Source of the DNA: Streptomyces sp. NBC_01198 | GTDB taxonomy: Bacteria; Actinomycetota; Actinomycetes; Streptomycetales; Streptomycetaceae | NCBI RefSeq assembly: GCF_036010485.1 | Contig: NZ_CP108568.1 | Span: 6,742,001-6,806,000 of the forward strand | Length of the DNA: 64,000 nucleotides | Direction: 5' to 3' | Shown: in pieces, positions 34,949 to 60,319 of the stretch | How the letters are laid out: each line of letters opens with the position of its first letter | Numbering within the stretch: the first letter of the stretch is position 1 | Notes under the pieces: generated by a model | Database searches by the model: none | Seen by the model: only the letters and a program-made list of their open reading frames with translations | What the model was told of the DNA's origin: nothing | Translations under genes and position numbers: made by a program

Positions 34949-35045
34949 GCCCCAGCCCCTTCCCCCGACCCGGGGGGAGGGGCCGCCCCTCGCGGGGGCG
35001 GACCGCCCCTGGGCGGGTGGCTGCCTGTCGCGCCGTTCTCCCCGC

Positions 35046-35077
35046 GGCTCCGCGTGGGGGTACCCCCACGCGGAGCC
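35046..35077. repeat. 32-bp perfect palindrome with GGGGGTACCCCC centre
   Basis: Arms of 15 bases (GGCTCCGCGTGGGGG) flank a central TA. It is fully self-complementary and could form a cruciform or act as a terminator for either strand. Confidence 0.85.
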
Positions 35078-35121
35078 CTGGGTGGGTGGCCCTTGGGGTT
35101 GTTTGCCGCCTTTGGGTCGGT

Positions 35122-35256
35122 CGTGGCTGGTCGCGCAGTTCCCCGCGCCCCTGAAGCTTGCCCTCTGCGGCAGAGGGCGCCCCTGCCAGGCACGCATCCT
35201 CTGCGGGGGAGGACACGAGCCCCGCAGGGGCGCGGGGAACTGCGCGAACAGCCACG
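35122..35256. repeat. Inverted repeat of the GCGCAGTTCCCCGCGCCCC family
   Basis: Left arm 35122-35153 and right arm 35225-35256 are 32 bases each and differ at one position. The core GCGCAGTTCCCCGCGCCCC recurs in three other gaps of this window. Confidence 0.9.
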
Positions 35257-44321: not shown

Positions 44322-44520
44322 CAGGGGCGCGGGGAACTGCGCGACCGGCCCCCACCGGGGGCGCGGGTCGTCACCGGCCGAAAGGGGCTGCTCGGTCCGT
44401 GCCGGACCACCGGCCGGTGGTGGGTTGCGCGCGAAGTTCCCCGCGCCCCTGCGGGGCGCAACGAGCCGCTCGGACAGCGCGCCACCGTTCGGGCTGGGCG
44501 CGTAGTTCCCCGCGCCCGTG
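44322..44520. repeat. Three copies of the GTTCCCCGCGCCC element
   Basis: One copy on the minus strand (from 44322, with GCGCGGGGAACTGCGCGA) and two on the plus strand (about 44430-44451 and 44497-44519), degenerate in the GCGCAGTT part (GCGAAGTT and GCGTAGTT). Confidence 0.8.
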
Positions 44521-51893: not shown

Positions 51894-51960
51894 GCCCCCG
51901 GCGCCCCCGCCCCACCCGGCGCGGGGGCGCCCCGCTGCTCCCTCCGAGCCCCTGCGTGGG

Positions 51961-52130
51961 TGCCACTTGCGGTGGCGTTTCGCCTGCAGCACCGTCGTGG
52001 CTTGTCGCGCAGTTCCCCGCGCCCCCTGGTGGCTTGCCCTCTGCGCAGAGGGTGCGCGTTTTTCGCGGGCGCGGGGAACTGCGCGCTCAGCCCCCGTGGC
52101 GGGAAAGGCGCGACGCCACCGCAAGTGGCA
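51961..52130. repeat. Composite palindromic repeat between metK and priA
   Basis: Outer perfect 17-base arms (TGCCACTTGCGGTGGCG at 51961-51977 and its complement at 52114-52130) enclose inner arms of the GCGCAGTTCCCCGCGCCCC family (about 52003-52025 and 52068-52087). It fills most of the 298-base gap between metK and priA, where no gene was seen; a -10-like GTAAGAAT precedes priA. Confidence 0.9.
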
Positions 52131-52191
52131 ACCCCCTTAGGCGCCCCAGGACAAAAAACGTCGTGTCGGTGCGGTCTGTAAGAATCGGACG

Positions 52192-58038: not shown

Positions 58039-58207
58039 TGCCACCTGCGGTGAGCGTCCGCCTGCCGCGCCGTCGTGGCTAGTCGCGCAGTTCCCCGCGC
58101 CCCTGACAAACGCTCACCCTCTGCCCACAGGCCAAGCCCCCAGGGGCGCGGGGAACTGCGCGCTCAGCCCGGGACGCCGGAAGGAGGCGCCGCCACCGCA
58201 GGTGGCA
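58039..58207. repeat. Composite palindromic repeat between rsmB and the MMPL gene
   Basis: Outer 14-base arms TGCCACCTGCGGTG (58039-58052) and complement (58194-58207) enclose inner arms of the GCGCAGTTCCCCGCGCCCC family (about 58083-58104 and 58141-58161). Same architecture as the element after metK. It lies between convergent genes. Confidence 0.9.
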
Positions 58208-58213
58208 CCCCCC

Positions 58214-60319
58214 TCAGGGGTGCGGGGAGGTGCGCGTCAGGTGTGAGGGGAGCCAGATGCGGTCACCCAGGTCGAGCGCAATCGCAGAGACCAGCACCGA
58301 CCGCACGACAAACGTGTCGAGCAGCACCCCGAAAGCCACGGCGAAGCCGATCTCCGCGAAGCCCACCACCGGCAGTGTGCCGAGCACGGCGAACGTCCCG
58401 GCCAGCACCAGACCGGCCGAGGTGATGACGCCGCCGGTGGCGGCGAGCCCGGTGCGCACCCCCTCCCGCGTGCCCAGCGCAGCGCTCTCCTCCCGGATAC
58501 GGGTCATCAGGAAGATGTTGTAGTCGATGCCGAGGGCGACCAGGAAGACGAACACGAACAGCGGGAAGGCGGTGTCCTCGCCGGCGTATCCGAGGACGTG
58601 CCGGAAGACGAGGGAGCTGACGCCGAGCGCCGCGGCGAAGGACAGCACCACCGTCGCGATCAGTACCAGCGGTGCGACCAGGGCGCGCAGCAGCAGCCCC
58701 AGGATCACCAGCACGACCAGCAGGATCAGCGGGATGAGCAGCTTGTCGTCCCGGGTGGACGCGTGCGCGGTGTCCTTCTGGACGGCGGTGCCGCCGCCGA
58801 CCTCGGCGTCGGCGCCGGGGATCTTGTGCAGGGCGGCGCGCGCCCGGCCCACGGTGGCGGCCGCGGCCTTGCTGTCGGGGCGGTCGGCGAGGGTGGCCTC
58901 CAGGTAGACCCGGCCGTTCTTCTGGGTGGTGATGCCCTGCGGGGTGCCGACGGAGGCGGGGACGACGCCCGGGAGCGCCCGGAGCGCGGCGCCCACCTGG
59001 GCGGCGGTGCCCGCGCTGGCGACGACGACCATCGGCTGGCCGCCGCCGGCCGGGAAGTAGCGGTCCTGGACGCGCTGCCCGACGACCGAGTCGGGGGTGT
59101 TGGTGAAGGTGTCCGCACCGGACAGGCCGTCTGCCTTGAGGGCGAAGAGGCCGAGGGCGAGCCCGCCGAGCACCACCACCGTGGTCACCCAGACCATGCG
59201 CGGCCGGACGCTGATCCGGCCGCCGATCCGCGCCCACACCCCGGTCCTGGTCGGCTCGGGGGTGCCGACGTGCGGGACGGCCGGCCAGAAGACCCAGCGC
59301 CCGACGATCACCAGCAGCGCGGGGAAGAGCGTGATCATCGCGAGCAGGGCGACCGCGACGCCGACCGCGGCGACCGGCCCGAGGCCCGAGGTGGAGTTCA
59401 TGTCCGCGGCCAGCAGGCACAGCATGCTCAGCGCGACGGTCGCCGCGCTGGCGATGACCGCGGGGCCTGCCCGGTGCAGGGCGAGCGCCATCGCCTCGTG
59501 CCGGTCGTCGTGGCGGCGCAGTTCCTCCCGGTAGCGGGCCACCAGCAGCAGCGCGTAGTCCGTACCGGCGCCGAAGACCAGCACGGTGAGGATGCCCGCG
59601 CTCTGCCCGTTGACCACCAGGCCTGCGTGCCTGGCCAGCAGGTAGATGAGCGCCTCGGCGGTGAAGAGGGCCGCGACCACCGAGAGCACCGGCATCAGCA
59701 GCAGGCTGAGGCTGCGGTAGGTGATCAGCAGGATCACCACGACCACGCCGAGTGCCGCATAGAGCAGGGTGCCGTCGATGCCGGCGAAGGCCTTGCTGGA
59801 GTCGGCGGCGTAACCGCCGGGCCCGGTGATGTGCGCCTGGAGCCCGCCGGAGTCCTTCGTCGCGGTGGCCCGCAGGTCGTCGACCGCGTCCTGGAGCGAG
59901 GTCCAGCCGCTCTTCTCGACGGTGATCGGCACGATGACCTGGGCGGCGCGCGGCGCCGCCTTGCGGTCGAGCAGCGGGCCGACGGTTCGGGTGCCGGTGA
60001 TGCCGTGGGCGGTCATCGCGCGCATCGTGGCGGTGTTCCGGCCGATGGCGGCGACATCGGCCGGGGTGAGGCCGCCGGGCCGGGTGTAGACGATCACCGC
60101 GGGGGAGGTCTCGGGGACGAAGTCCTTCTGGAGGGCGAGGACCTTGGTCGACTCCGCCTTGCCCGGCAGCCAGCTGGCCGCGTCGTTCTTCTCCGCGTCC
60201 GTCAGCTTCTGCGCTAGCGGCGCGAGCGCCACCAGCACGATCAGCCACAGCGCCAGGACGACCCATTTGCCGCGCCGCCCGCACACCAGGTGTGCCATCC
60301 GTCCCGCTCCGCCCGCCAT
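58214..60319 (-). CDS. MMPL/RND-type membrane transporter
   Basis: A 701-residue RND-superfamily protein of the actinobacterial MMPL group. It has about 12 membrane helices in two blocks, an extracytoplasmic loop after TM1, and the signature segments [16 protein letters not shown] and [15 protein letters not shown] with charged residues of the proton pathway. Substrate is probably a lipid or hydrophobic compound but cannot be told. The ATG preceded by GGGGGA 8 bases upstream is chosen; a second ATG seven codons later is possible. It is divergent from rpe across 204 bases that contain no further gene. Confidence 0.9.

Follow-up and report, generated by a model that had tools for sequence, protein, structure and literature searches.

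What kind of element is the nested palindrome that follows metK in this genome, and what has kept its parts in place? We addressed this question in a 64,000-nucleotide stretch of DNA, the window, which belongs to a 7.9-Mb genome in one contig. The gene names metK, priA and rsmB are assumed ones, taken from the initial annotation or suggested by the translations. The outer arms after metK, TGCCACTTGCGGTGGCG (51961–51977, +) and its perfect reverse complement (52114–52130, −), form the exact 17-bp inverted repeat that the initial annotation had described, and they enclose the inner 19-mer pair that it had reported: an exact match at 52007–52025 (+) and an inverted copy with 1 mismatch at 52066–52084 (−). 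We refer to this 19-mer as the core, K. A single 67-nt inverted repeat, 78% complementary, spans 51958–52024 and 52067–52133. On the left side, an outer small hairpin, a variable linker and K make up a unit, U (51958–52026, +), which elsewhere in the genome occurs as a 73–74-bp tandem unit. The hub between the two cores (52032–52063, +) consists of a CCCTCT/AGAGGG stem hairpin followed by TTTTT and resembles an intrinsic terminator when read towards +. Directly 3' of metK lies an ordinary G+C-rich hairpin with 14-bp arms and a 4-nt loop (51900–51931, +); most relatives that lack K also carry a strong hairpin here.

The nested layout is found again after rsmB (58039–58207), as had been noted, and the palindrome is indeed a recurring composite with a REP-like layout. 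In this second element, arm-motif searching located the outer arms, TGCCACCTGCGGTG, at 58039–58052 (+, a C variant) and 58194–58207 (−), and 19-mer searching located the cores at 58085–58103 (+) and 58143–58161 (−); the hub (58104–58142, −) lies the other way round, its T-run being read towards −. A further degenerate K (58217–58235, −; 3 mismatches) overlaps the 3' end of the adjoining minus-strand reading frame, which we take to be transporter-like. The final residues of this frame (58214–58235), RTSPHP, are encoded by the degenerate K remnant, and the stop codon follows immediately. A third element (35133–35245) has two K copies facing inward (35133, +; 35227, −) around a longer hub, and a fourth (44324–44518) combines a tail-to-tail K pair (44324, −; 44431, + with 1 mismatch) with a tandem K (44500, +; 2 mismatches). 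When as many as 3 mismatches are tolerated, the 19-mer has 11 matches in the window versus 0.35 expected from shuffles; the arm motif taken by itself, at a tolerance of 2 mismatches, matches 5 times versus 1.97 expected, a count that 2 of 100 shuffles also attained. In some K-like cores, GGGGCGC and GGAAC are separated by a hairpin insertion of roughly 30 nt (CTTCGCCTGGGGGTACCCCCA type), another recurrent small repeat, seen in the window (35037–35090), elsewhere in this genome (6404900) and in the relatives G005, G004 and G030. When folded, the strands of the two nested copies have energies of −129.4 and −132.6 kcal/mol, which correspond to z-scores of −9.35 and −9.65 relative to dinucleotide shuffles. 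The sole Rfam match in the window is the Streptomyces-metK RNA (RF03063; 50560–50674, 87.4 bits), just upstream of metK. An Rfam search of the element itself returned just one chance-level match (E 1.2) and none above the gathering score, which rules out a known Rfam RNA family as its identity.

The metK palindrome is the smallest form, with one unit per side (n = m = 1), of a dispersed mosaic element. K, GCGCAGTTCCCCGCGCCCC, occurs in 168 exact copies in this genome, and the 182-bp element used as a query gave at least 176 matches there (40 of 214 candidates scored). The architecture was worked out by reading 30 loci and further stretches of the genome. Copies of K are connected by three kinds of joint: head to head through the hub, a CCCTCT/AGAGGG hairpin frequently followed by a T-run; head to tail through U, 73–74 bp long and bearing the outer small hairpin GCCACTTGCGGTGGC; and tail to tail through a different linker. 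Spacings between neighbours were taken from 159 cores in 57 clusters, a set drawn at up to 3 mismatches from K that hence includes some chance matches. They are 72–75 in 31 of 38 ++ pairs, 73–74 in 23 of 25 −− pairs, 55–59 in 23 of 34 +− pairs and 107–108 in all five −+ pairs, two of these five stretches having been chosen because the 107–108 spacing had already been noticed there. Arrays are mainly mirrored, (U)n–hub–(U′)m, and one cluster (6852124) reads −++−. Within K, internal pairing amounts to just 4 bp, GCGC/GCGC, and a CGTC stretch lies upstream, its four positions being kept in 97, 94, 78 and 79 of 116 units.

One array holds six K units on one side of the hub (G000:C1:1799457-1799953; loci L010 and L070), three unit copies being identical; it is the clearest recent tandem expansion observed. 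Of the 26 pieces of this genome, 25 fall outside a 466-kb contiguous region and had been selected for holding K, so these 25 are uninformative on K density. Near the left chromosome end, six K-like places lie at G000:C1:222379-369813, below 0.4 Mb, and the next one listed is at 1.68 Mb, which hints at a K-poor chromosome arm region.

Are the two halves of the palindrome held complementary? The initial annotation had argued that changes between arm versions, CTT/AAG against CCT/AGG, keep pairing, which would imply that one long stem, as a cruciform or in RNA, is under selection. The strong fold (z about −9) and the matching arms of both window copies are what this explanation predicts, and comparison across the genome contradicts it. 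Among 28 elements, same-element arms are 0.692 identical versus 0.715 for re-paired arms; the probability of an equal or higher value is 0.997, about 0.3% of permutations being lower. This test used the 116 of 172 units with a recognisable outer hairpin, and a pair was counted when the arms to the left and right of the hub could both be scored. Summed over arm columns, concordance is 795 versus 827.6 expected. The CTT/CCT site behaves as chance would have it: 20 of 28 pairs agree versus 19.3 expected (P = 0.40), and the sole C–C pair is the second window copy, after rsmB. Because the outer arm carries its own 5-bp hairpin (GCCAC-TTGCG-GTGGC), the difference at this site sits in a local loop, where a partner is possible only in the distant arm. 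The perfect stem running outward from K averages 12.6 nt versus 14.1 nt when permuted (P = 0.012; 34 pairs), and the small arm hairpin has all five pairs formed in just 54 of 116 units. Checked for compensatory change, the nested copies of this genome show substitution without pairing in their arms. Arm identity, column concordance, the CTT/CCT site and stem length together rule out arm compensation, and selection for one long stem is hardly credible. Pairing in both window copies arises because both arms are copies of one conserved unit.

The hub stem is a real stem. In 27 regular hubs, hubs of at least 56 letters and unscored ones being left out, 85.2% of cells are paired, compared with 85.5% after shuffling and 43–67% after sliding. 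These 27 hubs show no excess of double changes beyond shuffles, and with shuffles equal, hub covariation is ruled out. Across the hub, the arms of one element are less alike than re-paired arms (28–34 hub-spanning pairs in this genome), a hint that matching arms are avoided, possibly through the instability of long perfect palindromes. The three-letter class next to K is alike in 4 of the 34 pairs versus 5.9 expected (P = 0.25), with no significant avoidance.

K itself is much better kept than the linkers in this genome. Of 34 elements located by the hub alone, 26 carry K with 0–1 mismatch on the right and 24 on the left, most of these stretches having been picked for holding the element; of those located by the outer hairpin alone, 84 of 131 carry such a K. 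In the unselected contiguous region only, the counts are 7 of 9 (right) and 5 of 9 (left) by hub and 17 of 31 by outer hairpin. The middle of the unit has a mean identity of 50% between loci. We infer selection on K, through hairpin function or through a putative K-binding protein, and binding of such a putative protein to the DNA could equally be the cause. In that case a protein that organises the chromosome or controls its topology (gyrase or a nucleoid protein) would recognise K in the DNA, and the hairpin would be incidental. This putative DNA-binding role is the main rival to the terminator or stabiliser reading that we favour; we regard it as possible, if doubtful. It accommodates a K sequence that is kept while the linkers drift, and an exact 19-mer in nine genera, K having been an exact search key across genera, such that the scans show occurrence rather than variation and identity there is by construction. 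It also has a parallel in the BIMEs of E. coli, for which the accessible part of one source describes mosaic features together with binding of gyrase and IHF (PMC2817692).

Do the elements still move? Within genomes (52 elements in this genome, 16 in G004 and 18 in G030), the closest pieces at different loci are 91.3% identical over at least 90 nt and 88.0% over at least 150 nt, so recent copying is not seen. The lack of near-identical copies at different loci in these sets rules out recent transposition of whole elements there. Positions are conserved between species: of the 12 K-bearing gaps of this genome conserved with G030, 11 hold K there as well, and over all 252 conserved gene pairs K is in both genomes in 11, in this genome only in 1, in G030 only in 4 and in neither in 236. 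The counts for both, this genome only and relative only are 3, 3 and 1 of 102 for G005, 3, 1 and 3 of 92 for G004, 1, 1 and 1 of 37 for G011, and 1, 2 and 3 of 60 for G027. One orthologous gap holds K in all five relatives compared and lacks it in this genome; at another, G005 has a relic with hub and outer hairpin and without K. Nine orthologous gaps were read for a fresh insertion with target duplication, and they revealed losses, the relic and restructuring, with no clear insertion. Arrays at orthologous gaps vary between species in unit number and orientation. Neighbouring tandem units are more alike than permuted ones (44 pairs; identity 0.779 versus 0.718, with 0 of 2,000 permutations as high), which indicates that arrays grow by local duplication. 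The best reading is that the elements are old and mainly inherited in place, that is, vertically.

The same observations bear on a neutral explanation, in which an extinct MITE-like family decays in place and owes its gene-end position to exclusion by promoters and genes. Restructuring between species, losses and the relic would all follow from decay, as would the lack of recent copies and the anchors that have no K altogether. Neutral decay would nevertheless not leave K near-identical in most elements while the linkers fall to about 50% identity, and exclusion from promoters alone does not explain the excess between convergent genes described below. We therefore consider this explanation improbable.

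How widely is the repeat distributed? Exact K is present in 172 of 297 genomes of Streptomycetaceae and in 9 of 17 genera, at 0–542 copies per genome; the reversed pattern, used as a control, gave 0 or 1 per strand. Of the 35 genomes from the genus studied here, 25 carry it; of 384 genomes sampled outside the family, 26 of them from the same class, none does. The sample from across the phylum comprised 396 genomes, of which 8 match K, all of them among the 12 family members included. The outer arms are clade-specific. With at most 1 mismatch, the outer arm occurs in 13 of the 35 genus genomes and reaches at least 10 copies in seven, this one included (138, 118, 113, 85, 34, 18 and 10); because the reversed control there reaches 7 to 19, the two lowest counts are at about control level. 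Among named records, all 12 stretches holding the composite unit are from Actinacidiphila, ten of these from A. bryophytorum. In the other genera examined, the same K surrounds different hubs. Exact head-to-head K pairs 4–60 nt apart occur in 8 of 10 K-rich genomes, G115 and G170 having none, so the hub form is not universal. One other genus (G037, locus L198) carries an alternating K array, and in a relative (G016:C2:36051-36846) exact K occurs at alternating steps of about 79 and about 180 bases, a different regular array.

The usual explanation for REP-type repeats is a Y1 transposase. If this held here, the element would be genuine mobile DNA of the REP/REPIN type, mobilised by a REP-associated tyrosine transposase (RAYT), a lead that the initial annotation had suggested following. 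The layout fits, with a short core, inverted pairs, fixed spacings, intergenic location and hundreds of copies as in REPINs and BIMEs, and the enzyme does not. Y1_Tnp (PF01797) has 0 matches in this genome; the control search matches in E. coli, showing that the model works. In the genus, Y1 occurs in 7 of 35 genomes, in 1 of 25 with K versus 6 of 10 without (Fisher P = 8 × 10⁻⁴, in the wrong direction). Across the 297 family genomes there is no association with K: Y1 is present in 98, made up of 54 of the 172 K-bearing and 44 of the 125 K-free genomes (Mann–Whitney P = 0.49), and in 9 of the 30 K-richest. K was found in none of the 20 Y1 flanks fetched, just 4 of which come from a K genome (G029, one of the 54 that have both). 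Absence from this genome and lack of family-wide association rule out a RAYT link, the flanks being partly covered. With no near-identical copies at unrelated loci either, Y1-driven mobile DNA appears very unlikely. Plasmid and phage records gave no blastn match to the 182-bp element at E 1e-8 or 1e-4, which rules out its carriage by them.

Comparison with known systems places the element close to, and outside, the described classes. REP cores are clear imperfect palindromes beside a GTAG or CGTC tag, and the binding partners of BIMEs are gyrase, IHF or Pol I. REPINs of Pseudomonas and E. coli are described, in the accessible part of the source, as having a short core, inverted hairpin pairs at set spacings, many copies and an intergenic location, with some tandem clusters (PMC3116915). 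The K element shares the core, pairing, spacing, copy-number and intergenic traits: its core is extragenic and exceeds 100 copies (168 exact; one cluster in 52 lies within a called gene), and it forms hairpins as inverted pairs at fixed spacing. Unlike REPINs, which are REP doublets with a RAYT, its abundance does not follow RAYT; one core serves nine genera with hubs that differ in the genera examined; no recent copies were found; and head-to-tail arrays are mirrored about one hub. As in E. coli BIMEs, one intergenic unit is joined by recurrent linkers of three classes, distinct for head-head, tail-tail and head-tail joints. In contrast to BIMEs, arrays in this genome are mostly mirrored rather than alternating, the array at locus L198 of G037 being alternating. 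Because the RAYT link and, in this genome, alternating orientation are lacking, we do not file the element as a REPIN or a BIME. K also shares 12 letters, AGTTCCCCGCGC, with the E. coli CRISPR repeat of type I-E, and several of the matches listed for this string concern CRISPR. Unlike CRISPR spacers, the linkers of K arrays are homologous to each other; we take the sharing as coincidence and do not favour CRISPR kinship.

Among the open-access matches listed, with subscription journals outside this scope, we found no description of the repeat. The accessible parts of three Streptomyces transcript-end studies do not mention such a repeat (PMC8780764, PMC8269248, PMC6742748), that of a further paper holds nothing on it (PMC11678152), and in another, Streptomyces and actinobacteria do not occur (PMC3733652). 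Short Streptomyces transcripts have been mapped to palindromes, many in 3' UTRs and some likened to E. coli REPs, with no repeat named in the accessible part of that study (PMC4681348).

Where do the elements lie with respect to genes? In this genome, 51 of 52 clusters are outside called genes. With called genes on both flanks (n = 50; clusters whose best K has more than 1 mismatch and the 2 of 52 rows without a called gene on one side are omitted), 15 lie between convergent and 2 between divergent genes, versus 20 and 56 of 200 background gaps (convergent excess P = 9 × 10⁻⁴, divergent deficit P = 1.2 × 10⁻⁴). Background gaps were at least 100 bp long, and genes were called by codon composition. 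The unselected contiguous region of 466 kb gives 7 of 18 convergent (P = 0.003) and 1 of 18 divergent (P = 0.047). In G030, 6 of 17 are convergent (P = 0.043) and 3 of 17 divergent versus 57 of 199 in the background (P = 0.41, not significant). Sixteen loci from other genera, two from each of 8 genomes and picked on exact head-to-head K pairs rather than at random, include 8 convergent (P = 5 × 10⁻⁴) and 1 divergent (P = 0.08) against a pooled background. The median distance to the flanking stop codon is 75 nt (n = 64). A chromosome-organising or topology protein binding K would not, alone, account for this convergent-gene bias, nor for K lying directly after metK where relatives carry other hairpins.

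K lies within 700 nt after metK in 9 of 30 genomes, this one included, and starts 8, 15, 52 and 56 nt after the metK stop in G005, G030, G004 and G012. At the other five of the nine loci, including the one studied here, the start of K is over 100 nt from the stop and a different hairpin precedes it, so K is not the sole candidate terminator there. Among relatives without K, 18 of 21 have a raw folding energy of −41 kcal/mol or below over the first 80 nt after metK. Two traits of intrinsic terminators can be compared: a stable hairpin after the stop codon is present, and a U-tract oriented with the upstream gene is absent, the hub T-run agreeing with gene direction in 12 of 20 codirectional cases (P = 0.50). 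Hub polarity is thereby ruled out as a directional terminator signal. The element resembles bidirectional intrinsic terminators in placing a hairpin between convergent stops and in combining a hub hairpin with a T-run; it differs from them in a core sequence that is kept, in hundreds of dispersed copies and in a T-run polarity unrelated to gene direction.

On balance, we favour, with some reserve, an old, mainly vertically inherited, REPIN/BIME-like gene-end element in which the K–hub–K′ hairpin is a predicted two-way terminator or 3'-end stabiliser. The modular anatomy, the spread through the family with none found outside it, the placement at gene ends and the conservation of position between species are observed; we infer the terminator or stabiliser function of K–hub–K′. 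The element would be a mosaic gene-end repeat of Streptomycetaceae, its K copies joined via the hub, the 73–74-bp unit U and the 107–108-bp tail-to-tail linker. Transcribed from either strand, K–hub–K′ would form a long RNA hairpin enclosing a small hairpin, often with a T-run, and this long hairpin would most likely end transcription, or stabilise 3' ends, for the genes on both sides. The outer units may be clade-specific passengers that grow and shrink via tandem duplication. A bolder proposal, which we hold to be rather unlikely, is that a REP/BIME-type system arose independently in Streptomycetaceae: K would be the putative recognition site of a family-conserved, non-RAYT factor that keeps K the same across genera and has spread interchangeable hubs to gene ends.

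What emerges is a REP-like system that extends across a family, with up to 542 exact cores per genome and without a Y1 link; given that lack, what spread the repeat and what maintains its core becomes a testable question. Were the factor-driven proposal true, whole lineages would have re-equipped many of their transcription ends with one module. If, as in our preferred reading, K–hub–K′ is a terminator module, it would offer a compact two-way insulator part and would show where transcripts end in many relatives of the antibiotic-producing streptomycetes.
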